Source: an uncultured Elusimicrobiales bacterium
GTDB taxonomy: Bacteria > Elusimicrobiota > Elusimicrobia > Elusimicrobiales > Elusimicrobiaceae
Direction of reading: 5' to 3'
Length of the DNA stretch: 43,948 bases
Assembly: GCA_944324105.1 (NCBI GenBank)
Contig: CALUVA010000002.1
Coordinates: 1-43,948, forward strand
Shown: positions 174-42,590 of the stretch, one piece after another
How positions within the stretch are numbered: the first letter of the stretch is position 1
How the letters are laid out: each line of letters opens with the position of its first letter
Notes under the pieces: model-generated
The model's database searches: none
What the model was told of the DNA's origin: nothing
Seen by the model: only the letters and a program-made list of their open reading frames with translations
Program-made: the position numbers and the translations under genes

Positions 174-629
174 ATGTTTCAGATACGAAAAGCGGAACAA
201 AAAGACTTGGAAACCCTGGTGGATTTTAACAACCGCCTGGCTTTGGAAACCGAAAACCGCCCGCTGGACCTGCAGCGCCTGCGCGCGAGCATGCAGGCCA
301 TTTTGGACGACGAACGCAAAGGCGTTTATCTGCTGGCCTGCGACGGAGAAGAGGTACTGGGGCAGATTATGTACGTCTTTGAATGGAGCACCTGGCGCAA
401 CGCCAATTTTATGTGGCTGACGGATTTGTATGTGCCGCCGCAGCATCGTAAATGCGGTGTATTTAAATCCTTGTTCCGCGCAGTAATGGATTTTTATCAC
501 AGCCGCACAGACATCATCGGCCTGCGTTTTTATGTGGACAAAACGAATACCGCCGTCGTGCCGCTGTATAAAAAAGTAGGCTGGAAAGAGTCCAACTATA
601 ATTTGTGGGAAATTAAAAAGCATGACTGA
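174..629 (+). CDS. GNAT-family N-acetyltransferase
   Basis: This 151-residue protein has the size and layout of a single-domain GNAT acetyltransferase, which moves an acetyl group from acetyl-CoA to an amine. The core strand and pyrophosphate loop are visible as WLTDLYVPPQHRKCGVFKSL (residues about 82-101), a degenerate R/Q-x-x-G-x-G/A signature. The C-terminal N-T-A-V-V-P-L-Y-K-K-V-G-W segment is the typical end of the fold. A TATAAT box lies at 142-147. The gene overlaps the NRPS gene by 8 bases (ATGACTGA), so the two are probably translationally coupled and the enzyme may acetylate the NRPS product or a precursor. The substrate cannot be read from sequence. Confidence 0.85.
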   Translation: MFQIRKAEQKDLETLVDFNNRLALETENRPLDLQRLRASMQAILDDERKGVYLLACDGEEVLGQIMYVFEWSTWRNANFMWLTDLYVPPQHRKCGVFKSLFRAVMDFYHSRTDIIGLRFYVDKTNTAVVPLYKKVGWKESNYNLWEIKKHD

Positions 630-3600
630 ACGCCCCCAAAATATTTTAATCGTGGACGGCTACGCCACCGGCACCCAGTATGCCGCGCGTATCCGCGCGC
701 GGGGGATGAAGCCGTATCACATCACGTCCGGCTGGGAAAAACTTTCTTCCTTTTCGCCGGATTTTATGAACAAATACATCAAATCCCAGGTAGGCGGACT
801 GTATGAAGCCTGCTGGCGTATGCCAGACGATTTGGAACAGGCCGTACAAAAGCTCAAACCCTATCGTTTTGCCGCCGTTATCCCGGGTACGGAAACAGGC
901 GTCATCGCGGCCGAAACGCTGGCGCTGCGTCTGGGCCTGCCCGTTAATAAACCGGAACTGTTATGGGCGAGGCGGGATAAATTTCTCATGCAAAAAGCCC
1001 TGGCTGCGGCGGGACTGAACCACATTGATTCCTTTTTGACTGGCTCTTTGGACCAGGCCCTGGCCTGGTTTAAACAAAAAAATTACCCGCGTATTATCAT
1101 TAAACCCACACGCAGTGCGGGAACGGACGGCGTGGCTTCCTGCCAAAATGAAGACGAAATCGCCCGTTATTTTCACAAGTACCTGCACCAAACCGACGCC
1201 GCTGGCAACCTCAACGACCAACTGCTTTTGCAGGAATATGTGGAAGGGGACGAAATGGTGGTCAACTGCGTTTCCTGCCAGGGCCGCCACATTCTGACCG
1301 ATGTCCTGCTGTATAACAAAGTGCTGACCCGTTCCGGCGTGCCCGTTTATGAAGCCAGCAAACTAGTGCACGACATTTCCGGCCGCTATAAACAGGCCGC
1401 AGAATACACTTTTAAAGTGCTGGACGCGCTGGGCATTACGCGCAGTTCCTCACACAGCGAAATCAAACTGACGGACCGCGGCCCCGTGCTGGTGGAGACC
1501 GGCGCGCGCATTATGGGCAGCACGCCGCCGCAGTATTACGACGCACTGGGATACAACCTTATTGACTGGTCTTTAGACGCATACCTGGACCCTTCGGCCC
1601 ACCAAAAAAACGCCCGCAAGCCCTACGCGCCCAAAAAGCACTTCATGGCTAAATTTTTCATTTCCGAAAAAGACGCCCCCATAGATGAAGTAACGGCGGA
1701 AAAAACCCTGCCGCTCCTGGACTCTTTTGTTACCTCCAATTTCAACACATTAAAAATCACCAAGCGCCTGCATAAAACGGTGGATATGCCCTCCAAGCCT
1801 GGGGACTGTCTGCTCATGGCCGACTCCGAGCTGCAGCTGCTGCGCGATTACAACCTGTGCCGTTTTATGGAAAAATGCCGCAGCGGCCTTCTGTGGAGGG
1901 AAGCGGGACAGACGCTTACGGACGGTGAAAAATTACTGCTGGCCCAGCTGAAAGCCAAAGAATACCCGCAGGCAGATATAGACCGCGCGTTAAACGGCTA
2001 CCGCATGGGATACATGAATTACAAAAATACCCAGCTGTATGTATTAAACGGGGACTTGCTGCCCTGTCAGGCGGGTGAAAAAGGCGAGATATATGTAACG
2101 GGCGCCTATCTGGCCAAACGGCCCTACGATTTGCCCTGCGTGAAAAAGGAAAATTTTCTGCCCAATCCGTTTTACAGCGCTGTTACACGCCAGTATACGC
2201 CCATGTATCCGTTTTTGTATAAAACCGGCGATTATGCACTGGTCAATGCGGATGGATCTTTGTGGTTTATTGATAAAAAAACAAACAAACTGACCCATTC
2301 TTTCGGCAAGCATGAGCCGCGGCCTTTCTGGCCGCTGACCTACACCGAAAGGCAAATGGCCGCCGAGCAGCGCTTGTCGCCTTCGTCCAACGCATACAAC
2401 GCCAAATTTGCTTTTAAAATCACGGGACAGCTGGATTTGCGCCGCTTTAAAGAAGCATTAAAAATCTGGGTCGGGCGTTACCGTATTTTATCTTCATACT
2501 ATCCGACGGAAAACGGACAAATCGTGCATAAACTGGCCAAAGACCTGCCCCTTGCAATGACGGTATTTTCCTGCCCGTTTGGGCAGGCCATGAAAAAAAT
2601 AGAAGAGCTCAACGCCCCGTATGATATTTCCGTGCCTCCGCTGTACCGCTTTTACCTGTTTAAGACCGGCGCAAAAGAATATGTGTTCCACATGAACGCG
2701 CACCACATTATAGCCGACGGAGTCAGCGTAATCAGCATTATTGAAGAACTGTGGAAACTCTACAAAAACCGCCGCGCCAAAAAATTCCGCCTGGAAGAAG
2801 AAGACTTTTTGGATTATGCCCTGTGGCAGGAGCAAAACCCCGATTATAAAGACAAGGCACAGTTTTTCCTGGATATGTTTAAAGACGGCGTGCCGGAAAA
2901 CGAAATGCCGCTGCGCGGCCTGCGCCCCGAGATATTGCCGCATGCGGCACAGGTCAGCGCGGAATATTTATTTCCGACCGCACGCGTGGACGCGGCGGCC
3001 AAAACGCTGGGCGTTTCCCCTTCTTTGCTGCTGACGGCACTGTCCGCCGCCGCCCTGGCCAAATACACCGCCAGCGAAGATTTTGTGCTGGGCGTAATTA
3101 TGAACGGGCGCAGCCATCCGCAAAGCAAAAATATTTTCGGTATGTTCGTCAACGCCGTGCCCGTACGCTTTAAACCGCAGGGTGCGCTGACACTACAGGA
3201 ATATTTGCAGCGTTCCAATGAAGTTTTCCGCGGGGTAATCGCCAACCAGACCTGCCCGTTGGAATACCTGGTGCCCGTGCTGGCGCCGCGGCGGGACCTT
3301 TCGCGCAAACCGCTGTTTGACGTTATTGTTAACTACCGGCCGGAAATACGTCCTTTTTCCACGCCGGAAATAAACGTAACTTTTCTGCAAATGCGCCAAG
3401 CCACGCAAACGGATATGCAATTGGAAATTCTGCGTGGCACAAAAGACATAAATGTATCCGTTTCTTATTCCCGGCAGCTGTATCAGGACGAAGTGATTAC
3501 AGGCATACTGGATTTATTTAAAAATATGCTGGACCAAATTCTGCGAGACCCCTGCGCCAGAATAAAGCTCTCCGATCTGACAGCTCTGACGGCATCGCAG

Positions 3601-6153
3601 CGTAAACAGGTTTTATCGGATTTTGCCGGAAAACGAACTACTCCGCCGCAGGAAACCATCGTGGACACCTTCCGCCGTACGGCGCATACCTATGCTGCAC
3701 GCCCCGCCGTAGTCTGTGAAGGGCGTGTTTTGACCTATAAACAGCTGGACGAAGCCTCTGACCGCCTGGCCCTCCTGCTGGCACAAAAAGGCCTTAAACG
3801 CGGCGACAAAGCCGGCATTTTGGTCGGCCGCAGCGAAAATCTGCTGGTATATGCGCTGGGTATCTTAAAAACCGGCGCGGCATATGTGCCGCTGGACAGT
3901 TCCCACCCGCGGGAACGCATTCAGTTTATGCTCAAAGACGCAGCGGTAAAGCTGGTTATTGCCGATGAAGAATTTTTGCCTTTGGCCCAAGGAACCGCTG
4001 CTCTTACACCAAAACAGTTGGCCAAATTCGCTACCCCCGCCAAAGCCGCCGTTCCGCCCGCACCGGGTATGCCCGATGATTTCGTCATTTTATATACTTC
4101 CGGCACGACGGGCCAGCCTAAAGGGGTGGTGCTGACCCACCAAAATTTGGCCGTATTCTGCCAGGGGCACCGCAAACGCTTCCGCCTCGGCCCGCAGGAT
4201 CGCGTGGCCACCTCGGCGGGGTTGGGTTTTGACGCATGTATGATGGACTTTTACCCTACGCTGACCTGCGGCGGATGCGTGCATGTCATTGCGCAGGACA
4301 TCCGATTTGACATAGAGGCTTTAAACGAATACTATCTCAAAAACCAAATTACCGCCACACTGCTCACAACTCAGCTTGGGTATCAATTTGTCAAAAACAT
4401 TCAAAAGACCTCCCTGCGCTACCTCATTGTGGGCGGGGAAACCTTAACGCCCGTACAGCCGCCGAAAACATATAAACTTGTCAACGCCTACGGGCCGACG
4501 GAATGCACGGTATACGCTTCCTGTTTTACGGTGGACAAATTTTATGACCGCGTGCCTATCGGGCACCCGGCCGACAACTGCTCCGTCTATATTGTGGACA
4601 AAGCCGGCCGTCTGGCCCCTGTGGGCACGTTCGGGGAGCTCTGCATAGCGGGGCCCAATGTGGCGCGGGGATATCTCAATCACCCCAAACTGACGGCGGA
4701 AAAATTTGTGCCCAATCCTTTCAGTACCGAAAAAGGGTTTGAACGTATGTACCGTACCGGCGATTTTGCACGCTTTAATCCGCAGGGGATACTGGAATTT
4801 TTAGGCCGCAAAGACGGCCAGGTGAAAATACGCGGCTTTCGCATAGAGTTAAACGAAATAGAACTGCAGTTGCGCAAATTTAAAACTGTCCAAGACGCCA
4901 CCGTCATCGCCCGTGAAGACAAAAGCGGGAATAAATATGTGGTAGCCTATTTTGTTTCAAAAGAAAAGACCGATGCAGCCGCCTTAAAACGCTTTTTGGA
5001 AGACAGCCTGCCGCCTTATATGATACCCGCCTTTTTCGTGCAGGTGGACCATATTCCTTTAAATCCCAACGGCAAAGTGGACCGCCGCGCCCTGCCGGAG
5101 CCGGACCTGTCCGCCCGCAGTACGGCCAAATACGCTGCGCCGCAGGGACGCATTGAAAAAGAACTGATGTATATTTGGGCCCAGCTGCTGAATATGGACC
5201 CCGCACACATCGGCCGCGACGACAATTTCTTTGATTTGGGCGGCACATCTTTGCGTTCTACGGAGCTTTCCCTGCGCATACGCGACGTATTCAGGGAACA
5301 TATTTCCCCCGCCCTGATTTTTAAATACCCCACCCTGCGCGAACAGGCAGAGTATCTGGACAGCCACAACAGTTTTCCCATGGTACACGCGTTCAATACG
5401 CAGGGCAACAAAACACCGCTGATTTTTATACACACGGCCAATGCCGGCTCGGAAGCCTATGTGCCGCTGGCGGCCAAACTGCCGCCGGACCAGCCCTTTT
5501 ACGCCGTGGAACCCCATAATATTTTCAGCGGGGAAGACGTTATCCGCGGCATACCGCAGCTGGCCAAACGCTACATCAAATACATCCGCCGCGTACAGCC
5601 CAAAGGGCCGTACAGTCTGGGCGGCTGGTCCTTCGGGGCGGCGGTGGCGTATGAAATTGCCGTTCAGCTGGAAAAGGCCGGAGAACGGGTGGAATGGCTG
5701 TTTTTGCTGGACCCGCTGATAGAACACAGCCAAGAGGAGCAGGAGCTGACCAAAAAACTGATCGGCACTTCTTTTTTCCACGGTTATTTAAACAACGATC
5801 CGCTGTTTGCGCGTTTTAAAAAGCTGGGGCTGGTGGACAAGCTGCTTTCCAACAGCAAAGCCGTGTTTGAAGACATGTTTGCCTTCAAACCGCGTCCGTA
5901 CGGCGGCAACGTGATTTTGTTTAAGGCCACGCGGCCCGACCCTCCTGCCAAAGACATAGACCCCGCCATGGCCCGCGCCCTGCTCTCTTTCCAGCGCGCG
6001 CATATTGCGCAAAAGGACAACGGGTTTAAAAAATATGTGCGCCGTTTGCAGGTAATTCCCATTTTTTCGCGGCATGATTTCCTGATGCGCGGCAATGCGC
6101 TGGAAATAATTGCCCGCGTCATCGCCCAAAAAGGAAAACGCCGTGTCCGTTAA
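622..6153 (+). CDS. Hybrid ATP-grasp / nonribosomal peptide synthetase (ATP-grasp, A-fragment, C, A, PCP, TE)
   Basis: This is a cytosolic 1843-residue assembly-line enzyme. Residues 1 to about 410 form an ATP-grasp ligase (IIIKPTRSAGTDG at 158-170, VETGARIMG at 291-299). Residues about 485-555 look like a decayed piece of an adenylation domain. A condensation domain follows with an intact HHxxxDG motif (694-700). A complete adenylation domain runs from about 1010 to 1495 (YTSGTTGQPKG near 1158, NAYGPTE at 1288-1294, YRTGD at 1377-1381, NGKVDRR near 1483). The carrier-protein serine is Ser1543 in DLGGTSL. A thioesterase ends the protein (GGWSFG with Ser1670, Asp near 1697, His1818). One full module plus an ATP-grasp unit suggests a very short peptide or amide product released by the thioesterase. 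The product is unknown. It overlaps both neighbours. Confidence 0.93.
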   Translation: MTERPQNILIVDGYATGTQYAARIRARGMKPYHITSGWEKLSSFSPDFMNKYIKSQVGGLYEACWRMPDDLEQAVQKLKPYRFAAVIPGTETGVIAAETLALRLGLPVNKPELLWARRDKFLMQKALAAAGLNHIDSFLTGSLDQALAWFKQKNYPRIIIKPTRSAGTDGVASCQNEDEIARYFHKYLHQTDAAGNLNDQLLLQEYVEGDEMVVNCVSCQGRHILTDVLLYNKVLTRSGVPVYEASKLVHDISGRYKQAAEYTFKVLDALGITRSSSHSEIKLTDRGPVLVETGARIMGSTPPQYYDALGYNLIDWSLDAYLDPSAHQKNARKPYAPKKHFMAKFFISEKDAPIDEVTAEKTLPLLDSFVTSNFNTLKITKRLHKTVDMPSKPGDCLLMADSELQLLRDYNLCRFMEKCRSGLLWREAGQTLTDGEKLLLAQLKAKEYPQADIDRALNGYRMGYMNYKNTQLYVLNGDLLPCQAGEKGEIYVTGAYLAKRPYDLPCVKKENFLPNPFYSAVTRQYTPMYPFLYKTGDYALVNADGSLWFIDKKTNKLTHSFGKHEPRPFWPLTYTERQMAAEQRLSPSSNAYNAKFAFKITGQLDLRRFKEALKIWVGRYRILSSYYPTENGQIVHKLAKDLPLAMTVFSCPFGQAMKKIEELNAPYDISVPPLYRFYLFKTGAKEYVFHMNAHHIIADGVSVISIIEELWKLYKNRRAKKFRLEEEDFLDYALWQEQNPDYKDKAQFFLDMFKDGVPENEMPLRGLRPEILPHAAQVSAEYLFPTARVDAAAKTLGVSPSLLLTALSAAALAKYTASEDFVLGVIMNGRSHPQSKNIFGMFVNAVPVRFKPQGALTLQEYLQRSNEVFRGVIANQTCPLEYLVPVLAPRRDLSRKPLFDVIVNYRPEIRPFSTPEINVTFLQMRQATQTDMQLEILRGTKDINVSVSYSRQLYQDEVITGILDLFKNMLDQILRDPCARIKLSDLTALTASQRKQVLSDFAGKRTTPPQETIVDTFRRTAHTYAARPAVVCEGRVLTYKQLDEASDRLALLLAQKGLKRGDKAGILVGRSENLLVYALGILKTGAAYVPLDSSHPRERIQFMLKDAAVKLVIADEEFLPLAQGTAALTPKQLAKFATPAKAAVPPAPGMPDDFVILYTSGTTGQPKGVVLTHQNLAVFCQGHRKRFRLGPQDRVATSAGLGFDACMMDFYPTLTCGGCVHVIAQDIRFDIEALNEYYLKNQITATLLTTQLGYQFVKNIQKTSLRYLIVGGETLTPVQPPKTYKLVNAYGPTECTVYASCFTVDKFYDRVPIGHPADNCSVYIVDKAGRLAPVGTFGELCIAGPNVARGYLNHPKLTAEKFVPNPFSTEKGFERMYRTGDFARFNPQGILEFLGRKDGQVKIRGFRIELNEIELQLRKFKTVQDATVIAREDKSGNKYVVAYFVSKEKTDAAALKRFLEDSLPPYMIPAFFVQVDHIPLNPNGKVDRRALPEPDLSARSTAKYAAPQGRIEKELMYIWAQLLNMDPAHIGRDDNFFDLGGTSLRSTELSLRIRDVFREHISPALIFKYPTLREQAEYLDSHNSFPMVHAFNTQGNKTPLIFIHTANAGSEAYVPLAAKLPPDQPFYAVEPHNIFSGEDVIRGIPQLAKRYIKYIRRVQPKGPYSLGGWSFGAAVAYEIAVQLEKAGERVEWLFLLDPLIEHSQEEQELTKKLIGTSFFHGYLNNDPLFARFKKLGLVDKLLSNSKAVFEDMFAFKPRPYGGNVILFKATRPDPPAKDIDPAMARALLSFQRAHIAQKDNGFKKYVRRLQVIPIFSRHDFLMRGNALEIIARVIAQKGKRRVR

Positions 6154-7564: not shown

Positions 7565-8497
7565 ATGAAACGAAATGTTTTGACAATACTATTATTCTTC
7601 TGTACGTTAGGAATATCTGCCCAAACATTTGTGGCAGACACCAGTTTGCTTGACCCCACTGAGAGCTACGTTTTCTACTCCTACAATAAAACGCGACCGC
7701 CTTTTTTAGCTGTTTATCAGAAGAACGGACGAACCCTTGTCGTATTGGGAGCCTCACACGGTCCTCAATCTTTACCTGCCGTACAATATACTTTCGATAC
7801 CTACCATCCGCAAGTTGCACTTATTGAAAGAGAGCCGGGTTCCCCTTTGAGTGGCCGTAATTGTAGAGAAATGGAAGACGTATATACAGCTGCTTTAAGT
7901 GCCAAAAACAATATCCCACTGGTACGAGCGGACGCCGATTTGGAAAAACAATGGAAGTATGCTGAGCAGCATGGTTTTTCGTATGAGGATTTCCAAATGT
8001 TGTGGATAATTCGCAGTGCATACTCTTTTGTTGCTAAATATGAGGGAAAACAAACGAGTGCTACCCAAGAAATTAGAGATTACAAGCGTACAGTACACAA
8101 TCCCGCATGGGGAGAATTGTTTACTGAAGACCGTTTGCTTGCTTATTTCCAAGAGCACTATAATAGAGATTTTAACACGACCGATTTTATATCGTTCTAC
8201 TTAGATTTAATGGAATTAACTCCCAAGAAATGGGTAAAGAAAACTCCTTTTTACAAAATTACAAAAGGACTAGACAATGCGCGAGGTGTATTTATGTTGC
8301 AGAATATAGCCGCAGCCCTGAATGAATACGAAGTCGTATTTAGTGAAATGGGAGCCGCACATTTTGTTGACATCCACAAAGCACTCAAAAAAATGTTAGG
8401 TAAACCGCGCTATATTACAGCAGACCAAATCCCTTCGCAAGAACTATGGCAAGATTGCACGTTAAATGGCTTAAAGGAAATTGTGCTGGTGCCATAA
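7565..8497 (+). CDS. Exported protein, possibly TraB/GumN/EreA-superfamily
   Basis: This 310-residue protein starts with a clear signal peptide (MKRN, a hydrophobic stretch, then ISAQ), so it is probably periplasmic or surface-exposed. An N-terminal V-V-L-G-A-S-H-G, a following A-L-I-E-R-E-P-G and a C-terminal V-F-S-E-M-G-A-A-H-F resemble the spaced G-x-x-H, E and G-A-x-H motifs of TraB/GumN/EreA-like proteins, some of which are metalloproteases or esterases. I assign the superfamily only tentatively. An AAAGGGG site precedes the ATG by 8 bases. Its base composition is clearly more AT-rich than both flanks, and it sits between duplicated gene tails, so it looks acquired. Confidence 0.6.
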   Translation: MKRNVLTILLFFCTLGISAQTFVADTSLLDPTESYVFYSYNKTRPPFLAVYQKNGRTLVVLGASHGPQSLPAVQYTFDTYHPQVALIEREPGSPLSGRNCREMEDVYTAALSAKNNIPLVRADADLEKQWKYAEQHGFSYEDFQMLWIIRSAYSFVAKYEGKQTSATQEIRDYKRTVHNPAWGELFTEDRLLAYFQEHYNRDFNTTDFISFYLDLMELTPKKWVKKTPFYKITKGLDNARGVFMLQNIAAALNEYEVVFSEMGAAHFVDIHKALKKMLGKPRYITADQIPSQELWQDCTLNGLKEIVLVP

Positions 8498-8524
8498 TGA
8501 CATAGTTATAAATCTTGTGCTACG

Positions 8525-8546
8525 CTCCTTGCTTAACCGCAAGGGG
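8525..8546 (+). terminator. GC-rich hairpin after the exported protein gene
   Basis: CTCCTTGC and GCAAGGGG form an 8-bp stem around a TTAACC loop, 28 bases after the stop codon. There is no strong T-run after it, so termination efficiency is uncertain. Confidence 0.4.
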
Positions 8547-8562
8547 CGTTATCATGTCGAGC

Positions 8563-8623
8563 TGGGGCCCTGTTGCTCTGCGGCCTGCCGCTTTTGTTTT
8601 GGGCCCGTTCTTCTAAATCATGA
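8563..8623 (+). pseudogene. Orphan duplicate of the MFS gene 3' end
   Basis: Bases 8563-8607 match the MFS gene at 7273-7317 at about 42 of 45 positions. They encode the same ALLLCGLPLLFWAR tail, followed here by S-S-K-S and a stop. There is no start codon or upstream membrane domain. This is probably the ancestral end of the MFS gene, separated from its body when the sequence at 7318-8562 came in. Confidence 0.75.
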
Positions 8624-8639
8624 GCAGGGAGCGGCAGAA

Positions 8640-9593
8640 TTAATACCATTCATGTTTTTCATGCCTGTCCAAAGCGGCCATTTGTTTCATTTCTTCTTCG
8701 GTCAGTTCAAAATCAAAAATTTGCAGATTTTCCCGTATATGCGCGGGATTGGACGAGCCCGGAATAACGGATATCCCCCGCTGTAAATTCCACCGCAGAA
8801 TTACCTGCGCCGGAGTTTTGCCGTGAGCACGAGCAATGGAAGCCACCGTGCCGTCGGAAAACATGCGCCCCGTATGACCGCGGCCGCCAAAAGGAAACCA
8901 GCCCTGCACGGTAATCCCCAAACTTTGTATATATTTCACTACTTCGGTATCCTGGTAATACGGATGTATTTCATTTTGCACCAAAGCGGGCTTGACGCTG
9001 ACCTGAGGCAAAAATTCCCGAAGTTCTTTAATGTACCAGTTGGACAAACCGATGGAACGCACTTTTCCCTGCGCCACGGCTTTTTCCAACGCTTTATAGG
9101 CTTTTACGTCCCCGCGGCCGGGATGATGCAACAGGAGCAAATCTATATACCCGATGTCCAGTTTTTGCAAGGCCTGTTCTATGGCTTCCTCCGCCCGGGC
9201 AAACTGGGTGGGATAAAGTTTGGTGATAACAAAGATTTCCTCCCTCGGCACGCCGCTTTTGCGCACGGCGCGGCCGACGCTTTCCTCATTTCCGTAAAAA
9301 GAAGCCGTATCAATCAGCCTTCCGCCGGCAGCCAGCAGGGCCAGCACGGAGCTTTCACACGTCTTATCCGCCAACGCATAGGTGCCCAGGCCCGCCAGCG
9401 GCATTTCATATCCGCTGTTTAAACGCACGGTTCTTCTTTTTAAATCAAAATTTCCCGCCATGGGATTGGACGACAAATTTGCCAAAATATTCATATTTTT
9501 TTCTCCTTCCTGAGCACTGTCCGCCGCCCCGCCGCAGGCGCAAGCCCCCAACAAACACACCGAAAATAAAGCAAACAGTTTTTGTTTATACAT
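8640..9593 (-). CDS. Aldo/keto reductase with a lipoprotein signal peptide
   Basis: This is a 317-residue protein. After a short hydrophobic leader comes a lipobox, L-L-G-A-C, predicting lipid attachment at Cys18 and export. From about residue 53 it is a canonical aldo/keto reductase. The catalytic tetrad is visible: Asp and Tyr in D-T-A-S-F-Y-G-N-E, Lys in V-I-T-K-L-Y, and His in L-L-L-L-H-H-P-G. An NADP-binding I-P-G-S-S-N motif lies near the C-terminus. Most family members are cytosolic NADPH enzymes, so the export signal is odd. An AAGGGG site precedes the ATG. It is the last gene of the leftward operon headed by the DUF3737 gene. Confidence 0.88.
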   Translation of the reverse strand: MYKQKLFALFSVCLLGACACGGAADSAQEGEKNMNILANLSSNPMAGNFDLKRRTVRLNSGYEMPLAGLGTYALADKTCESSVLALLAAGGRLIDTASFYGNEESVGRAVRKSGVPREEIFVITKLYPTQFARAEEAIEQALQKLDIGYIDLLLLHHPGRGDVKAYKALEKAVAQGKVRSIGLSNWYIKELREFLPQVSVKPALVQNEIHPYYQDTEVVKYIQSLGITVQGWFPFGGRGHTGRMFSDGTVASIARAHGKTPAQVILRWNLQRGISVIPGSSNPAHIRENLQIFDFELTEEEMKQMAALDRHEKHEWY

Positions 9594-35435: not shown

Positions 35436-35490
35436 TAAATGGTGTGCCCAACAGGAATCGAACTTGTATCTTCAGCTCCGCAAGCTGACA
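35436..35490 (-). repeat. Left att-like repeat: 3' half of tRNA-Arg(GCG)
   Basis: This 55-bp stretch matches 42512-42566 at 53 of 55 positions in the same orientation. It covers the tRNA 3' end, T-arm, variable loop and anticodon arm, after which similarity to the tRNA stops. This is the expected outcome of site-specific integration at a tRNA gene. Confidence 0.85.
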
Positions 35491-35558: not shown

Positions 35559-35587
35559 ACGACATTTAAATGACAAATTGCTATAAT
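35559..35587 (+). promoter_or_regulatory. Promoter of the WYL regulator, with operator O1 over the -35 box
   Basis: ACGACA (35559-35564), a 17-bp spacer and TATAAT (35582-35587) with an extended TGC. The palindrome CGACATTTAAATGAC (35560-35574) covers the -35 box. Transcription starting 7 bases after the -10 would begin at or next to ATG 35594, giving a leaderless message. Confidence 0.65.
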
Positions 35588-35593
35588 CTTATT

Positions 35594-36382
35594 ATGTCCA
35601 AAGAAATTACCGGTAAAACTAAACGTATAGCAGATATTTTGTCTTTATTGGAACATGCGCCTGTAAAACTGCCTGAATTAGCGGCCCAATTTGGGGTTTC
35701 TAAACGCACTATTCAGCGCGATATGGAATTAATAGCACAGGCACAATTTCCGGTTATTTCCCCTAAACAAAGCATATACATGTTAGCACCGGGGTTCTCT
35801 TTAACCGCGGCTAACCTATCTGCCGAGCAGGCCAGTTTGCTCATTATGGCAGCGGATATTTCCCATCAACTAGGGGGCCGTTTTTCCCAAATACTGGAAG
35901 AAATTGCTCAACGTTTTATACCCTCATCCTTTGAACACTGCGTATTTGGTGCCACTAAATACGATTTTGCCGAAACGGCCGAACCTGCTATTACCTTTTT
36001 AAAATGTATTAAATACCATTGTTTAGTGCGGGTATATTTAAAGAACTTCAAAAAAAACCGCACCTTATATCCCTATCGTCTCCTTCGTCTCTACGATAAA
36101 TGGCATGTGGTTAGTGTAAATTCCAAGGGAGAAATTTCTTGCTATGCTTTGGAAAATATAGGCAACTTCTCTTTGCGGGAAGATAGAGATACCTCCACCG
36201 GATATGCCCAATTCCAGCCGATTCCCTTTATCGACTGGGCCATTTGGCAGCATGCTCATCAGTGGGTAAAGGATCAAGCGCCTCAACCTGTACAAAACGC
36301 TGCTCCCTTAGCATCCGAACCGCAGGCCACAGTTGCCATAGAGGCTATCCCCGAAAAGCCCTCCCAAACACTACCATCTTAA
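35594..36382 (+). CDS. HTH + WYL-domain transcriptional regulator
   Basis: This 262-residue protein has an N-terminal helix-turn-helix (I-A-D-I-L-S-L-L-E-H, then L-P-E-L-A-A-Q-F-G-V-S-K-R-T-I-Q-R-D-M) like DeoR/HTH_11 regulators. Its WYL domain lies around residues 125-190 (L-Y-P-Y-R-L-L-R-L-Y-D-K-W-H-V-V-S-V). The C-terminal about 40 residues are proline/alanine-rich and probably disordered. WYL domains bind nucleotides, oligonucleotides or ssDNA in several families and often control phage-defence loci (BrxR/CapW type). I start at ATG 35594 because ATG 35570 lies inside its own operator and upstream of the predicted transcript start. Three palindromes in the island are its likely operators. 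Confidence 0.85.
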   Translation: MSKEITGKTKRIADILSLLEHAPVKLPELAAQFGVSKRTIQRDMELIAQAQFPVISPKQSIYMLAPGFSLTAANLSAEQASLLIMAADISHQLGGRFSQILEEIAQRFIPSSFEHCVFGATKYDFAETAEPAITFLKCIKYHCLVRVYLKNFKKNRTLYPYRLLRLYDKWHVVSVNSKGEISCYALENIGNFSLREDRDTSTGYAQFQPIPFIDWAIWQHAHQWVKDQAPQPVQNAAPLASEPQATVAIEAIPEKPSQTLPS

Positions 36383-36449: not shown

Positions 36450-36478
36450 TGGACAAAAAGCCCTTTTTATGCTATAAT
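36450..36478 (+). promoter_or_regulatory. Main island promoter
   Basis: TGGACA (36450-36455), a 17-bp spacer and TATAAT (36473-36478) preceded by TGC. Operators O2 and O3 flank it on both sides, so looping repression by the WYL protein is plausible. Transcription would start near 36485 and run about 500 bases through the SAM riboswitch before the first large gene. Confidence 0.7.
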
Positions 36479-36516: not shown

Positions 36517-36662
36517 TTTTTATTATTATTTTATAAATAACGTTATTTGAAGGAAGAGAGATAGTTTTACTATCAATCTACCAATTCCTAGGAAAAAGAA
36601 TAGCTTTAATAGCTCTAAGCTTGTCAGACAAGCAGGGATTGGGTCTTCCGGAAAATACCGTA

Positions 36663-36754
36663 TAGATCCATATAGAGTGTACGAGGGACAAGCCCGATGA
36701 CTACACAGCAACCTGCCTAAGGGTAAGGTGCTAAAGCTTGAACGATGGGAACTA
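36663..36754 (+). promoter_or_regulatory. SAM-I (S-box) riboswitch aptamer
   Basis: The conserved S-box core is present: GAGGGAC (36683-36689), GCCCGATGA (36692-36700), CAGCAACC (36706-36713) and GGTGCTAAA (36727-36735). P2 is GTGTA (36677-36681) with TACAC (36702-36706), with the kink-turn bases in GATGA. P1 is TAGATCCAT (36663-36671) with ATGGGAACTA (36745-36754), one mismatch and one bulge. The P1 3' strand can instead pair with GTAGAACCCAT (36772-36782) as an antiterminator. With SAM bound P1 forms and the terminator follows, so the downstream genes should be expressed when SAM is low. The P4 region is short compared with the consensus. Confidence 0.85.
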
Positions 36755-36773
36755 CAACCGTTTTATTGTGAGT

Positions 36774-36805
36774 AGAACCCATTGGAGACGATGGGTTCTT
36801 TTTTA
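36774..36805 (+). terminator. Riboswitch expression-platform terminator
   Basis: AGAACCCAT (36774-36782) pairs with ATGGGTTCT (36791-36799), followed by a run of T. The 5' arm is shared with the antiterminator formed by the aptamer's P1 3' strand, giving a textbook on/off switch. Confidence 0.88.
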
Positions 36806-36808
36806 CCA

Positions 36809-36845
36809 CCTCTCTGATGGGACATTCCCAAAGAGGGGTTTTTTT
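36809..36845 (+). terminator. Second tandem terminator
   Basis: CCTCT/AGAGG enclosing TGGGA/TCCCA, followed by seven T. It comes directly after the riboswitch terminator and before the first large gene at 37001, so the operon faces two stop signals. How read-through of the second is achieved is not obvious. An 18-base GC-poor spacer then leads to a 9-codon ATG frame at 36846-36875. Confidence 0.75.
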
Positions 36846-37000
36846 ATGGCTAAAAGAAATTTTGCCTACAAGTAAGAAAAATTAATTTTTCAGCCGTGTG
36901 TGAATACTGATGGGCAATTATCTTGAAGTGCAAAAGCTGTGTAGTAAGAATTTGACTATAGAAATTGGAATATTTATCGCTATATACAAAGGAAATGAAT

Positions 37001-38365
37001 ATGAAAACAACGAAGAAGGCTACAACTATTAAAAAATATACTTCACGTGCGGAATTGATTGGGCAGTTAACCCGGTGGCATGCCAAATGCGGTGTAGCTA
37101 TACGCCAAGCCGAGTGTGTAGAGCTGTTCAAGGAAATCTGCGCACGCTTAAAAAAGACCAATGGCAAAAAAGTGCCTATGGCTGCTCTCGTGCAAGAATA
37201 TAAGTTAAACGATACAGAACTGTTTTTATTGTTATTTTTGGCCACATCCCAGGTCTTGCGGGTCATCACACCGTCTACTTGCAAGGTCACAGCACTGTTG
37301 GAAAGCGCCCAAACCTTTGCCTCTTCCAAAGAAGTATTGGAAACTCTTTTTGACGGAAAAAGCGTGCTTTTTAGCAAAAAGATTTTAGTTTTATCCGGGG
37401 GAATATTAGACATAAAGAAAAACCCCCTCTTGACTCCGCCGCCGAGCAAACCTCGTCCTGCGATTCGCCGCACGTTCAGTGCTCAACGGGTTTTGGCGGA
37501 GCTGAATAAATATGTTATCGGGCAAGAAAATGCAAAAAAACAATTGGTAGCCGGAGTATTTGAACATTTAACAAAATGTGCCATAAAACCTGATATGACG
37601 TTTACAAAAAACAACATTTTTATCAGCGGGCCAACAGGCTGCGGCAAAACCTATTTATGCCAGTCTTTAGCACGTATTTTGAAACTTCCATTTGTTCATG
37701 CAGACGCTTCCCAATACACCCAAACCGGCTATGTCGGTATGAGCGTGGGCAATATTCTGCAACCGCTACATTCGCTGGCAAATGACAAGAAGTTGCCGCT
37801 TTCTATCGTGTTTATAGATGAAATTGACAAATTACATGAAGGGGGCGAACGCTGGGGCGTTGCTTCCAGCAATGTGCAGGCGGAGCTTTTGCGTATGATA
37901 GAAGGCCAATATTTCACCACCGAAGATCCTATTACTCATAAAAACATAGACTTGGATGTTTCCCGTGTAATTTTTGTAGTAGGTGGTGCTTTTGAAAACT
38001 TACAGGTAAAACACGCTGATAAGTCCGTCGGTTTTACACAAGGCAACGGCGTGCGCAAAGAGGCGCTGTCGGCAGATGATTATATTGGTTATGGGATGTT
38101 ACCGGAATTTATTGGGAGATTTTCATACTTTGTGCAGTTAAACCCGCTAGAAAAAGAAGATTTACGCCGTATTTTACTTAACCCCTACAACGGCCCGATC
38201 AGCCAATACGAAAAGCTATTGCATAGATCCACGTCCCTGCGGCCGGAACAAGTAGAAGAAATGGTCAATCAAGCTTATGAGCGGCGTTTGGGAGCGCGAG
38301 GCTTACAACAGCAAGTAGGGCAGTTATTTCAAGAGCAATTTTTACACCAAACAGTAAAGGTCTAA
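37001..38365 (+). CDS. ClpX-like AAA+ unfoldase with a novel N-terminal domain
   Basis: This 454-residue protein aligns by eye with ClpX from about residue 160 onward: Walker A G-P-T-G-C-G-K-T (210-217), pore loop G-Y-V-G (243-246), Walker B V-F-I-D-E-I-D (270-276), arginine finger in E-F-I-G-R-F (Arg373) and sensor-2 G-A-R-G-L (431-435). The loop that in ClpX carries the IGF ClpP-docking tripeptide reads V-G-F (343-345). The zinc-binding N-domain of ClpX is absent. A mostly helical about 140-residue domain replaces it. It probably unfolds specific proteins, perhaps feeding host ClpP. ATG 37001 is chosen over 36995 for its spacing to AAAGGAA. Confidence 0.85.
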   Translation: MKTTKKATTIKKYTSRAELIGQLTRWHAKCGVAIRQAECVELFKEICARLKKTNGKKVPMAALVQEYKLNDTELFLLLFLATSQVLRVITPSTCKVTALLESAQTFASSKEVLETLFDGKSVLFSKKILVLSGGILDIKKNPLLTPPPSKPRPAIRRTFSAQRVLAELNKYVIGQENAKKQLVAGVFEHLTKCAIKPDMTFTKNNIFISGPTGCGKTYLCQSLARILKLPFVHADASQYTQTGYVGMSVGNILQPLHSLANDKKLPLSIVFIDEIDKLHEGGERWGVASSNVQAELLRMIEGQYFTTEDPITHKNIDLDVSRVIFVVGGAFENLQVKHADKSVGFTQGNGVRKEALSADDYIGYGMLPEFIGRFSYFVQLNPLEKEDLRRILLNPYNGPISQYEKLLHRSTSLRPEQVEEMVNQAYERRLGARGLQQQVGQLFQEQFLHQTVKV

Positions 38366-38469: not shown

Positions 38470-38580
38470 ATGGCAGAACAAAAATATGAATGCAGTCGTT
38501 GTCGGCAAGTTTTTGTCTTTACGTTTCCCCCTTCTGGGATGAAATGTCCCTCTTGCGGCGGGCCTTTGTTTAGGAAGTAA
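38470..38580 (+). CDS. 36-residue zinc-ribbon protein
   Basis: This short gene is well formed: AGGAGA lies 7 bases before ATG 38470 and the frame ends at TAA 38580. The protein has two knuckles, C-S-R-C (residues 8-11) and C-P-S-C (27-30), spaced as in rubredoxin-like or FmdB-like zinc ribbons. The ClpX-like protein has lost its own zinc domain, so this peptide could supply an adaptor or substrate-binding zinc module in trans. That role is speculation. Confidence 0.7.
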   Translation: MAEQKYECSRCRQVFVFTFPPSGMKCPSCGGPLFRK

Positions 38581-38584
38581 GGAC

Positions 38585-38618
38585 ATCCCTGGACTAGGAA
38601 ATATCCTAGTCCGGGGAT
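38585..38618 (+). terminator. Long perfect hairpin after the zinc-ribbon gene
   Basis: A 15-bp stem (ATCCCTGGACTAGGA with TCCTAGTCCGGGGAT, one G-T wobble) has an AATA tetraloop, starting 5 bases after the stop. No T-run follows directly, so it may be a transcript-end or processing and stability element rather than a terminator. Bases 38619-38740 hold no gene and no convincing promoter. Confidence 0.5.
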
Positions 38619-38740: not shown

Positions 38741-39355
38741 ATGGCTTCAACTCAACAGGAAACAGAATTAACAAAAATTTTGGAAATATTTGAAGGGAGG
38801 GTTGTGTCCCCTACGGAAAAAGAAGCCCCCCAAGAAGAGGATGACATTTTTGCCCGCCATCTAACCCCCGCGGAACGCAAATTGTTACAACAGTTTACCT
38901 GTTTGCGCTTTTTTAGCCAAATAGACACACTGGTCTGTGAGTTGGGGCTTACGGCGGAGTTTTTCCGGCGGGCTCAGGGGGCCTTGCGGGAACTGGCTAC
39001 TTTTTTACCGTTAAACGATTTGCAAATAGTTCTATTTGTGGTACTTTATATGAACTCCGAAGATACAGGCTCTGATATTGATATAAACACGATTTGTGAG
39101 GCTTTACACCTACCCAGCCAGCGTTTACTTAGTTTAATAGATTGGCGAGAAATGGAAGATATGGGTTTGTTAAAGACAAATTTTCAGTGCTCTCCGGCTG
39201 TTTTGCGCTTGCCGGAACAGGTAATAGACGCCGTGGCAATGGTAGATATGGCCTTTTATTTAAAACTTTTTAAAAACAGAGGCGCCGAAGGGACAGTAGA
39301 GGACAAAACTGATTTATTTATGCTTATCTCTTTAGGAAGGATAAAGAAAAAATGA
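38741..39355 (+). CDS. Unrecognised helical protein, possible winged-helix adaptor
   Basis: I do not recognise this 204-residue protein. It is mostly helical with a long acidic N-terminal segment (E-A-P-Q-E-E-D-D). A stretch L-P-L-N-D-L-Q-I-V-L-F-V-V-L-Y (about 91-105) followed by I-C-E-A-L-H-L-P-S-Q-R-L-L-S-L-I-D and M-G-L-L-K looks like a winged helix. The N-terminal domain of the ClpX-like protein has a comparable L-N-D-T-E-L-F-L-L-L-F-L pattern, so the two may share a fold and interact. Its stop overlaps the next start (ATGA), so co-translation is likely. GAGG lies about 10 bases before the ATG. Confidence 0.6.
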   Translation: MASTQQETELTKILEIFEGRVVSPTEKEAPQEEDDIFARHLTPAERKLLQQFTCLRFFSQIDTLVCELGLTAEFFRRAQGALRELATFLPLNDLQIVLFVVLYMNSEDTGSDIDINTICEALHLPSQRLLSLIDWREMEDMGLLKTNFQCSPAVLRLPEQVIDAVAMVDMAFYLKLFKNRGAEGTVEDKTDLFMLISLGRIKKK

Positions 39356-40206
39356 GCGTTCAAACTATTTATATTGCAAAACCTACACCGGAAGTGTTAA
39401 AAATTTATCCGGCTTATCGGGGCTTTTTTCCGGGTTTTTATGAGGCTTTGATAGAGTTTCACCCGGTCAAAATGCTGGAATTGCCCGACATTTGGGTGCG
39501 GGACTTTCTACCCGTTCAAAACAGCAAAACAGGAGAACTTTTTCAGCTTGGTTTTAACCCTCGTTATGCCAACTACACCCCCAAGTTTACGATTGAAATA
39601 AACACCGCAGTACGGCGTTTATTCCCCGTGAGGGAATGCGTGCTGCCTTTAGACGGGGGCAACATTGTACGCGGGCCGGACGGAATGGTGTTTTGTTTAG
39701 AGAGCAGACGTCTTTTCAGAAAGTCTGTTCCTGAAGAGCAAGGCTTGGCTGAAGATGCGCTCTGCCCTGCGCTAGGTACAGAACACATTGTCTGGCTGCC
39801 CAGGGAAATAGGCGATAAGGTTGGACATATAGATGGATTTATGCAATTTATCGGTGATACGCTTTTTGTCAGCGATGAACGCTTTGACCCTTATTTGGAA
39901 CAGCTTTTGTATCGCCGACTGGAAAAAGTACGTCAGGTATATTGGAACTTGAAAGCACGCTTCTTGCCCTGTGTGCAGGACGCAGCAGACCCAAGCGGAT
40001 TAAGCGCGCGGGGCGTATACGTCAATTTCTTAGAAACAGCCTGTGCAGTTTTTGTACCGAAATACAATTTGCCGCAGGACGAAGAAGTACTTGCTATAAT
40101 AAAAACAGCCACTGACAAACCGGTAGTCGGGATAGACTGTACTGAAATAGCACGCTATGGCGGGGCGCTGCATTGTTTAACCAGAGAGTATGAGGGAGAA
40201 CTATGA
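39352..40206 (+). CDS. Agmatine deiminase / PPAD-family guanidino hydrolase
   Basis: This 284-residue protein belongs to the bacterial-type peptidylarginine/agmatine deiminase family. Key residues are present: I-W-V-R-D (47-51), L-D-G-G-N (100-104), G-H-I-D-G (158-162) with the catalytic His, and G-G-A-L-H-C (270-275) with the nucleophilic Cys275. The enzyme would release ammonia from a guanidino group (agmatine, arginine residue or another compound). It is about 70-80 residues shorter than typical agmatine deiminases and lacks a signal peptide. No putrescine-pathway partner is nearby, so a peptide or small-molecule role within the island is possible. It overlaps both neighbouring genes by 4 bases. 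Confidence 0.85.
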   Translation: MSVQTIYIAKPTPEVLKIYPAYRGFFPGFYEALIEFHPVKMLELPDIWVRDFLPVQNSKTGELFQLGFNPRYANYTPKFTIEINTAVRRLFPVRECVLPLDGGNIVRGPDGMVFCLESRRLFRKSVPEEQGLAEDALCPALGTEHIVWLPREIGDKVGHIDGFMQFIGDTLFVSDERFDPYLEQLLYRRLEKVRQVYWNLKARFLPCVQDAADPSGLSARGVYVNFLETACAVFVPKYNLPQDEEVLAIIKTATDKPVVGIDCTEIARYGGALHCLTREYEGEL

Positions 40207-40802
40207 CTTTAAATCAACACTTTAATGTCTTCTTAAAAAATAATAAAAATAATGAGCATGCGGCAATGATAGAGATGGCCGACTACATATTTAAAAACTG
40301 TTGCCTGCAGGCGGGAGATACGCCTTATTGGTTTACGGAAATAGAGTTTTATTATTATACGCCGAACCACAGAGACCCTTTTTGCAAACGGAATCCCATA
40401 AAGCCGCAAGATACTAAATTCCCGGAAGTAGCCAGCGATAAACTGTTTTTCCATTATTCCGGGGTAGATATCAGTTTTGATAGTCCTGAGCCCGATAAAA
40501 TGAAGCGCCAATATGGCGGAATCTTAATCCGCGGGATAAAAAATCCGGATGAGAAATGTGCGGTCAGCGGACCCTTAAAAGTGCTGTGCCACTTGCTTAA
40601 CAAAACGCAACAAACAAAAGATGGACGATTAACACTTCAATTGGCGCCTTCTCCTTTTTCGGATACGTATAAGTTCATTCCTCGCTATGGTTTGTCCGCA
40701 CCCACAGGGGATGACCTCAAACAGGACTTTGTTGCCAAACTCTATCGCTTTCACTTAAGCCAGGCAACAGGCGTAAAGCAAGCCAAAACAGGTAAAAAAT
40801 AA
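40203..40802 (+). CDS. Unrecognised conserved-looking protein (possible distant MPG-like fold)
   Basis: I cannot assign this 199-residue protein with confidence. It has F-T-E-I-E-F-Y-Y-Y-T-P-N-H-R-D-P-F (about 44-60), F-H-Y-S-G-V-D-I-S-F and Y-G-G-I-L-I-R-G-I. The E-x-E-F-Y followed by D-P-F and a later F-H-x-S-G-V-D and G-G-I-L-I-R arrangement is faintly reminiscent of 3-methyladenine DNA glycosylase (MPG-type), whose catalytic Glu lies in E-V-E-A-Y. That is a weak similarity. It is sandwiched by 4-base overlap between the deiminase and the nuclease, so it is part of the same system. Confidence 0.6.
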   Translation: MTLNQHFNVFLKNNKNNEHAAMIEMADYIFKNCCLQAGDTPYWFTEIEFYYYTPNHRDPFCKRNPIKPQDTKFPEVASDKLFFHYSGVDISFDSPEPDKMKRQYGGILIRGIKNPDEKCAVSGPLKVLCHLLNKTQQTKDGRLTLQLAPSPFSDTYKFIPRYGLSAPTGDDLKQDFVAKLYRFHLSQATGVKQAKTGKK

Positions 40803-40806
40803 ATAT

Positions 40807-42267
40807 ATGTTATCCAAATCCCAATACACCAAATACAAAGGTTGCCCCAAACACTTGTGGCTGTACCGAAACAAAAAAGAGGTTTTAACCCCGCCAGATG
40901 AGGCCACCCAAAAGAAACTCGCCCGCGGGCAGGATATTGGTCTTTTAGCACAAAAGCAGTTCCCAGGCGGAGTGGCGGTGCAGGACGGGTGGAAAAATCC
41001 TTCCGCAGCTGTTGCCCAAACGCGGGGATTAATGGCCCGCGGCGTGCCCGCCATTTACGAAGCGACTTTTTTATACAACGGCATTTGTGTACTGGTGGAT
41101 ATTTTGGAAAAAACACCCACAGGCTGGAACATTGTGGAAGTAAAAAGCAGCGGAAAGAACCTAAAAGCCATTTATGTGGACGATGTTTCTATACAAAACT
41201 ATGTGGTGTCTAACTGCGGGGTAGCGGTGGAGCATTGTTATTTAATGCACATCAATACGGATTATTTCCAAACCACGCAAGAACCCGATTGGAAACAGTT
41301 TTTCCTCTTAACGCTTTTAGACCCGGAACTTACGCCTATCAAAGAGATTGAACAGGATATTCAGGACATTAAAGCTTTACTGGCCGCGCCAGAGCCACAA
41401 GCCCTGTTGGACAAAAGCGGCTGCGCGGGTTGTGAAGCCTATGCTTATTGCTGGCGGGATGTTCCGAAAGACTCTGTGTTTGAAGTGTTCCGCAGTAATG
41501 CCGCGCGGGAATATATGGCCTTGGGCATTTTGCGCGTGCAAGACGTGCCGCCTGACAGTTGCAATACGGATAAACTAAACCATTGGGTAGAAGTGTACCG
41601 CACCCAGCGGCCCTATATAGACCGTACGGCGGTGGCCCAATGGTTAAACAAGCTGGAATATCCGCTGTATTATTTTGATTTTGAAACGACTCAACCCGTC
41701 GTTCCGCTGTGGCCGTACAGCCGGCCCTATCAGCAGATACCGTTCCAGTTTTCGCTGCATATCCAACACAAGCCCAACGGGCCTTATGAACATAAGGAAT
41801 ACTTGTTTGAGGGGAAACAAGACCCGCGCTACGGCTGTGTGGACGCGATGCTTAAATATATTGGTGAAAAAGGAACGTTAATTGCTCACCACGCCACGTT
41901 TGAAAAAACACGCATACGGGAAATGGCTAACGACTTGCCTATCCCGCAGGAGCAAAAAGACGCGCTTTTGCGTATGAGCGAGCGGTTTATGGACACGGAA
42001 ACTCCGTTTAAGCAGGATTATTTGCACCCCAATATGCACGGCAGTTCATCTATTAAAAAGGTTTTGCCGTCCCTGGTGCCGGAAATGACGTATGAAGGTA
42101 TGCCCGTGGCCAATGGTGGGGACGCGATGAACGCGTTTGACGAGTTGTATTTCGGCAATTTATCCGAAGAGGCCGCTCGGCAACTACGCCAGGATTTACT
42201 GGCCTATTGCAAGCAAGACACCTGGGCAATGGTAAAACTAGTGGACGCCTTGCGGGATAGTGTGTAA
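40807..42267 (+). CDS. DUF2779 protein: Cas4-like nuclease fused to a DEDD exonuclease
   Basis: This 486-residue protein has two nuclease parts. Residues about 1-220 are Cas4/RecB-like: Cys13 in K-G-C-P-K-H-L-W-L-Y, Glu85, Asp98, and E-V-K at 111-113, and a cysteine cluster C-x2-C-x5-C at 206, 209 and 215 that could hold an iron-sulfur centre. Residues about 285-480 are a DEDD-type 3'-5' exonuclease (D-F-E-T-T at 291-295, L-I-A-H-H-A-T-F-E near 358, Y-C-K-Q-D-T-W near the end), which fits DUF2779. It probably degrades or trims DNA or RNA. It is the last gene of the island, just before the terminator. Confidence 0.85.
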   Translation: MLSKSQYTKYKGCPKHLWLYRNKKEVLTPPDEATQKKLARGQDIGLLAQKQFPGGVAVQDGWKNPSAAVAQTRGLMARGVPAIYEATFLYNGICVLVDILEKTPTGWNIVEVKSSGKNLKAIYVDDVSIQNYVVSNCGVAVEHCYLMHINTDYFQTTQEPDWKQFFLLTLLDPELTPIKEIEQDIQDIKALLAAPEPQALLDKSGCAGCEAYAYCWRDVPKDSVFEVFRSNAAREYMALGILRVQDVPPDSCNTDKLNHWVEVYRTQRPYIDRTAVAQWLNKLEYPLYYFDFETTQPVVPLWPYSRPYQQIPFQFSLHIQHKPNGPYEHKEYLFEGKQDPRYGCVDAMLKYIGEKGTLIAHHATFEKTRIREMANDLPIPQEQKDALLRMSERFMDTETPFKQDYLHPNMHGSSSIKKVLPSLVPEMTYEGMPVANGGDAMNAFDELYFGNLSEEAARQLRQDLLAYCKQDTWAMVKLVDALRDSV

Positions 42268-42511: not shown

Positions 42512-42566
42512 TAAATGGTGCGCCCAACAGGAATCGAACTTGTATCTTCAGCTCCGCAGGCTGACA
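42512..42566 (-). repeat. Right att-like repeat within tRNA-Arg(GCG)
   Basis: This is the intact-tRNA copy of the 55-bp direct repeat at 35436-35490. The two mismatches lie in the acceptor stem and the anticodon arm. Confidence 0.85.
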
Positions 42567-42590
42567 CTCTATCCATTGAGCTATGGGCGC
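42516..42590 (-). tRNA. tRNA-Arg, anticodon GCG
   Basis: The cloverleaf is complete: acceptor GCGCCCA with TGGGCGC, D-arm with AGCTCAATGGATAGAGT, anticodon loop CTGCGGA (anticodon GCG, reading CGC) and T-arm GTTCGATTC. The discriminator is A and CCA is encoded. The island is joined to its 3' end. Confidence 0.93.

Follow-up and report, generated by a model that had tools for sequence, protein, structure and literature searches.

A P4-less SAM-I riboswitch in an uncultured Elusimicrobiales bacterium: probable control of a ClpX-like gene in a mobile island, and a recurring sub-type linked to mobile genes

A SAM-I-type riboswitch that lacks the P4 hairpin is located upstream of a ClpX-like gene in the DNA of an uncultured Elusimicrobiales bacterium, within a mobile island bordered by a tRNA gene, and we consider it likely that the riboswitch controls this gene by the mechanism proposed below. 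Computation revealed the aptamer, an intrinsic terminator, a second hairpin, their conservation and their linkage to the gene. Textbooks present SAM-I riboswitches as regulators of methionine and SAM metabolism. The P4-less sub-type, named class B for present purposes, is defined by a SAM-I core, a kink-turn and a pseudoknot in combination with the absence of P4. A limited literature search found no earlier report of a P4-less SAM switch before mobile genes. All positions given here and in Table 1 refer to the window, that is, the whole stretch of 43,948 nucleotides that was analysed.

Table 1. Features of the island and of the riboswitch leader within the window.
Feature	Positions	Strand	Remarks
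Left island repeat, partial copy of tRNA gene 3' half	35436..35490	.	53/55 bases identical to 42512-42566
HTH/WYL-like transcription regulator	35570..36382	+	upstream of riboswitch
Promoter-like site TGGACA-17-TATAAT	36450..36478	+	11/12 consensus match, extended TG; called from consensus match alone
Structured leader RNA upstream of aptamer	36535..36660	+	folding z -3.9
SAM-I-type aptamer without P4	36665..36751	+	P1 5' strand 36668-36671, P1 3' strand 36745-36748
Antiterminator	36743..36784	+	36743-36749 (P1 3' strand) pairs with 36778-36784 (terminator 5' arm)
Intrinsic terminator	36774..36804	+	stem 36774-36799, then T-run; pattern scan and folding
Conserved hairpin, 3' arm = Shine-Dalgarno of first ORF	36808..36839	+	folding, relatives
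Broken remnant of small first ORF (MAKRNFAYK, stop)	36846..36875	+	from sequence; longer in relatives, e.g. L024
ClpX-like AAA+ unfoldase gene	37001..38365	+	own Shine-Dalgarno 36990-36994
36-residue zinc-ribbon-like ORF	38470..38580	+	from sequence
Strong 15-bp hairpin, likely end of riboswitch-controlled unit	38585..38618	+	-28.3 kcal/mol
Separate four-gene module	38741..42267	+	four proteins, see text
Right island boundary	42512..42590	-	repeat partner 42512-42566 overlaps intact tRNA gene 42519-42590

Identity and fold of the aptamer

A first-pass annotation, made from the letters of the window, had called a classical SAM-I riboswitch with a visible core, kink-turn and P1, and had proposed a covariance-model scan as a check. 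Such a scan (cmscan, Rfam 15) bears out the call, with a match to RF00162 (SAM) of 56.9 bits (E 1.2e-10) against a gathering score of 44.4, and the RF00162 alignment contains P1, P2 with its kink-turn internal loop, P3 and the pseudoknot. The label "classical" does not hold, as P4 is absent from the alignment and is missing systematically in relatives; the aptamer is therefore filed as a SAM-I variant and not as a classical member. No other RF00162 match occurs in the window's own genome, which is approximately 81% complete. Judging by sequence, SAM is presumably the ligand, and the missing P4 could weaken or change its binding. SAM auxotrophy was considered, the window's genome having yielded no metK, and was rejected, given that metK is present in 84 of the 90 family genomes and that the assembly is incomplete. 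The aptamer is preceded by a structured RNA (36535-36660; -34.7 kcal/mol), at the position of which relatives carry hairpins differing in sequence.

Terminator, antiterminator and second hairpin

Folding of the terminator stem yields -19.1 kcal/mol (z -6.3). When the transcript ends just before the terminator 3' arm, the minimum-energy fold, thermodynamic and not co-transcriptional in nature, is the antiterminator, and P1 is lost. The mutually exclusive antiterminator and terminator proposed earlier are thus confirmed, the T-run terminator by scan and its competitor by the shortened-transcript fold. We infer a switch that is ON at low SAM and that operates in two steps. With SAM bound, P1 would form, the terminator would fold and transcription would halt, while at low SAM the P1 3' strand would capture the terminator 5' arm, letting RNA polymerase proceed to the ClpX-like gene. 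Where the leader is complete, low SAM would in addition free the P1 5' strand (CCAUAGAGAG-like) to pair with the anti-Shine-Dalgarno arm, exposing the Shine-Dalgarno sequence of the first ORF.

The second hairpin (-18.4 kcal/mol, z -2.9) had been taken for a second terminator. The hairpin itself stands, but its role as a conserved terminator is rejected: the T-run that follows it is missing in many relatives (L016, L017, L021, L022, L174 and L182), where the Shine-Dalgarno sequence of the first ORF forms the 3' arm, and these two observations together argue for a hairpin that sequesters the ribosome binding site. In the window itself, which does carry a T-run after this hairpin, some termination may occur there. 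The window also seems to have lost much of the translational layer, since the duplex between the aptamer 5' strand and the anti-Shine-Dalgarno arm is no stronger than expected by chance (p 0.165) and a stop interrupts the small first ORF after nine codons. With P1 and the terminator blocked in folding, the Shine-Dalgarno sequence is still hidden in the window, and the same is true of L019.

The Shine-Dalgarno hairpin across leaders

When leaders were folded from the terminator to the start codon, the Shine-Dalgarno sequence was paired with a probability of at least 0.8 in 34 of 39. Because segments of this length give a high level of pairing by chance (mean 0.73), the weight is carried by the hairpin energy (mean z -3.1 over the 39 leaders, shuffling upstream of the Shine-Dalgarno only) and by the changes in stem sequence, which include ACCTCT/AGAGGT, ATACTCC/GGAGTAT, GCCTC/GAGGC and CGCTC/GAGCG. 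The 5' arm and loop of the hairpin are complementary to the aptamer 5' strand, comprising the P1 5' strand and J1/2. The duplex has a mean z of -3.4 over 50 leaders, with p <=0.05 in 40, although this pattern was spotted by eye and tested on the same, related sequences, and these numbers are thus not independent evidence of mechanism. The pairing reaches 13-14 consecutive base pairs in L016 and L251, and is present in the minimum-energy folds of three leaders, two of which were folded from sequences truncated ahead of or inside the Shine-Dalgarno arm. CCAU loci carry RUGG in the hairpin, and phage-type CCUAU loci mostly UAGG.

These features suggest that class-B leaders combine transcriptional and translational control, ON at low SAM. 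Comparable arrangements are described for SAM-I in Xanthomonas and SAM-II in S. meliloti, which act on translation or with two outputs (PMC7270179, PMC9373788), as is proposed for class B. These switches control methionine genes, beside which no class-B switch was seen, and differ further from the class-B proposal in that here the aptamer's own 5' strand would pair with the anti-Shine-Dalgarno arm.

The island and the ClpX-like gene

The two repeats (35436-35490 and 42512-42566) align with a score of 100, compared with a best score of 26 among 300 random windows, and G+C content between them is 0.43 versus 0.49 in the first 35 kb of the window; the intervening stretch of approximately 7 kb is a small tRNA-bordered mobile island. 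Outside it, at 622-6153, the window holds a 1843-aa ORF that looks like a nonribosomal peptide synthetase.

The ClpX-like protein has conserved Walker A/B, pore GYxG, [IV]GF loop and GARG motifs. It shares with ClpX the AAA+ module, the pore and the [IV]GF-type loop, but has its own N-terminal domain (approximately 165 residues unlike those of ClpX) and scores 210 bits against the ClpX equivalog cut-off of 359. PADLOC models identified it with no named defence system, returning weak AAA matches of which DolB was the best (1.9e-10), and a scan of genome contigs with the protein returned general ClpX relatives and nothing closer.

It had been noted at first pass that no methionine or SAM gene follows the switch before 42267, and indeed none was recognised between 36850 and 42267. 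The accompanying suggestion that SAM controls an operon of unfoldase, deiminase and nuclease genes is retained in part: the switch does precede a non-methionine island gene, but a single operon is not upheld. The four-gene module encodes a 204-aa protein, a PAD_porph/agmatine-deiminase-like protein, a 199-aa protein and a Cas4/DUF2779 nuclease-like protein. A relative (genome G034, locus L024) has its deiminase-like and nuclease-like genes on the upstream side of the riboswitch, and this gene order, together with the hairpin at 38585-38618, indicates that control by the riboswitch probably extends to the ClpX-like gene but need not reach the later block.

Linkage of riboswitch and ClpX-like gene

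Whether island relatives keep the riboswitch next to the ClpX-like gene had been posed as a check, and the answer is uniform: across the 90 family genomes, an RF00162 aptamer lies approximately 230-390 nt upstream of all 17 ClpX-like homologues of at least 55% identity, a set that spans 55-100% identity, counts the window's own copy, and consists of loci kin to each other, G088 and G091 being nearly identical. Relatives of the HTH/WYL-like regulator stand before the riboswitch in 13 of these 17 loci. Two distant homologues (37-39% identity) have no aptamer among the RF00162 matches listed.

This linkage bears directly on the possibility, raised at first pass, that island cargo took the place of the original target gene. 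On that reading the lost gene would be a methionine gene and the riboswitch a relic with no present target. Such a history would fit the lack of a methionine gene downstream and the broken first ORF in the window, but it is at odds with retention of the aptamer by 17/17 homologues, with maintained covariation and Shine-Dalgarno hairpin, and with the distance, by coordinate comparison, between the family's metK genes and class-B switches. The 17/17 linkage is evidence against a replaced target, and the relic hypothesis, which we hold to be very improbable, was rejected on that basis.

Several loci (L018, L020, L024 and L160-L171) share a recurring operon behind the switch, which begins with the small ORF and the ClpX-like gene, continues with a 170-aa and/or a 165-aa membrane-anchored-looking protein, and extends to a TPR-containing 527-aa protein and a 263-aa protein; no named system was found for it. 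In L019 the 170-aa protein is encoded immediately 3' of the switch. No plasmid relatives were found.

Class B as a sub-type of SAM-I

Across the phylum, RF00162 matches split into two groups, with and without P4. Matches from elsewhere in the class and phylum are mostly 100-148 nt long and contain P4, and those of their downstream reading frames that could be recognised, by eye and with no profile search, look threonine synthase-, cysteine synthase- or homocysteine-related. Those from the window's family and from a single genus in a neighbouring family, the class-B aptamers, are approximately 84-92 nt long and lack P4. No class-B switch was seen beside a methionine gene in the window's family, the related genus, Lachnospiraceae or phage contigs. 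A model built from class B found 35 copies in 29 of the 90 family genomes, in agreement with RF00162.

An alignment of 43 distinct class-B aptamers, phage copies included and not tool-fitted to structure, has 97.5% of cells paired, and 12 pairs changed on both sides (shuffled mean 3.7; none of 500 shuffles as high). Slid-structure controls give 26-37% paired, a comparison that partly favours the class-B structure because the RF00162 model guided its placement. The pseudoknot, formed between the P2 loop and J3/4, is paired in 100% of cells, and two of its pairs show compensatory changes. The positions of the SAM-I core that we take, from general knowledge, to contact SAM are invariant or nearly so. 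Within P3 (alignment A2, columns 52 and 65), a G-U wobble alternates with A-C, as if wobble geometry were kept.

Class B shares with SAM-I (RF00162, S box) the P1/P2/P3 core, the kink-turn loop of P2, the pseudoknot, the core positions and the terminator/antiterminator platform. It differs in that P4 is absent from all members, in that its targets are accessory island or phage genes, and in that it adds a Shine-Dalgarno hairpin able to pair, by complementarity, with the 5' strand of the aptamer. SAM-I/IV (RF01725) belongs to the same SAM clan, and some class-B members score 34-37 bits with it; membership was rejected, there being no match in the window's genome and a best score among relatives of 37.1 against a cut-off of 41.1 bits. 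Moreover, SAM-I/IV is defined as lacking an internal loop in P2 (PMC2864571), whereas class B conserves one. By sequence comparison, class B is a recurring P4-less sub-type of SAM-I tied to mobile genes. It is unlikely that class B responds to a different SAM-like ligand (SAH, SAM-AMP or another): a systematic structural change does coincide with a complete change of target genes, but the core positions are conserved and nearly all loci score above the RF00162 cut-off.

Class B outside the phylum and its cargo

Class B was also found in several IMG/VR phage contigs and in two phage-collection records, one of which (MT835503) is flagged unverified and has bacterial-looking surroundings. Among 397 Lachnospiraceae genomes, the family label being that of the locus used as centre and of near relatives, seven contain strong matches (10 copies); weaker matches there resemble ordinary SAM-I switches, one of them before a metK-like gene.

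In phage-like contigs, class B mostly precedes an alignable family of approximately 100-residue proteins, for which neither Pfam (above cut-off) nor PHROG gave a significant match. The predicted fold is of moderate confidence (pLDDT 76), and the model has no significant structural match in viral or PDB libraries. DNA methyltransferase-like genes lie near the phage switches of L133 and L202. L202 holds two such genes and a gene recognised by eye as MetK-like (7848-8885), its class-B switch being at approximately 3612.

In the Lachnospiraceae loci L253 and L255, class B precedes proteins that by eye resemble N-formylglutamate amidohydrolase, a family to which Pfam assigns one class-B cargo protein of the window's family. 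Similar proteins occur near or directly behind class B in L184, L174, L164 and L168 as well as L253 and L255, across the window's family, a related genus and Lachnospiraceae. A recurring first gene of approximately 300-340 residues follows class B in L017, L021, L025, L174 and L182; those members that were scanned matched nothing in Pfam above cut-off. Other class-B cargo scanned gave few or no family matches.

Possible purposes of SAM sensing

One possible purpose, which we put forward tentatively, is that SAM depletion acts as a danger signal: a phage degrades SAM or uses it for DNA methylation, and the riboswitch would induce defence or rescue genes of the island. Soon after infection begins, the SAMase of phage T3 drains the cell of SAM (PMC8406200; also PMC7877911), so that a drop in SAM would be a plausible sign of infection. 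From the window's family and a related genus, the 128 larger proteins closest to class-B switches matched 215 PADLOC models at E 1e-8, compared with 36 models matched by 127 proteins of 20 arbitrary regions. These control regions, drawn largely from the same genomes, were not position-matched and left out one very long ORF, and counting models exaggerates the gap, since a single protein can match many of them. Matches near class B include type I restriction, DRT, Gabija GajB, SoFic and mads, among others; GmrSD and resolvase domains also occur among the nearby proteins, and WYL-type regulators adjoin many of the switches. Judged by these matches, the context of class-B switches is defence-rich. 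Against a danger signal, the ClpX-like system finds no match among known defence systems, phages themselves carry class B, and the PADLOC comparison has the weaknesses just given.

Alternatively, low SAM may create a methylation debt, in response to which restriction is restrained or DNA protected; the ClpX-like unfoldase would act by analogy with ClpXP, which removes EcoKI on unmethylated sites in restriction alleviation (PMC11109961), and phages, for their part, would employ the switch alongside methyltransferases of their own. The methyltransferase genes near phage class B in L133 and L202, the MetK-like gene of the latter, and conservation of the [IV]GF loop throughout the ClpX-like family are consistent with this, but much class-B cargo is not ClpX-like and the ClpX-like gene has no fixed neighbouring restriction system. 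We regard this purpose as rather unlikely.

Implications

Class B recurs ahead of accessory genes that are unrelated to one another, in phages as well as in defence-rich islands, which suggests that some mobile genes are wired to the level of the methyl donor. It is conceivable, though we advance it with reserve, that class B is a mobile SAM-riboswitch sub-type, common to phages and defence-rich islands of different phyla, which ties its cargo to SAM depletion at two levels, the P1 3' strand antiterminating and the 5' strand freeing the Shine-Dalgarno sequence. The short leader offers a directly testable element, and the aptamer together with the Shine-Dalgarno hairpin provides a sequence handle for finding genes responsive to SAM depletion. 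The presence of a P4-less sub-type before mobile, mostly uncharacterised genes, in phages and in bacteria of more than one phylum, suggests that metabolite-sensing RNAs also regulate the conflict-related gene pool and, if the two-level reading of class B is true, the SAM level would be a currency of phage-host conflict that is read directly by RNA.
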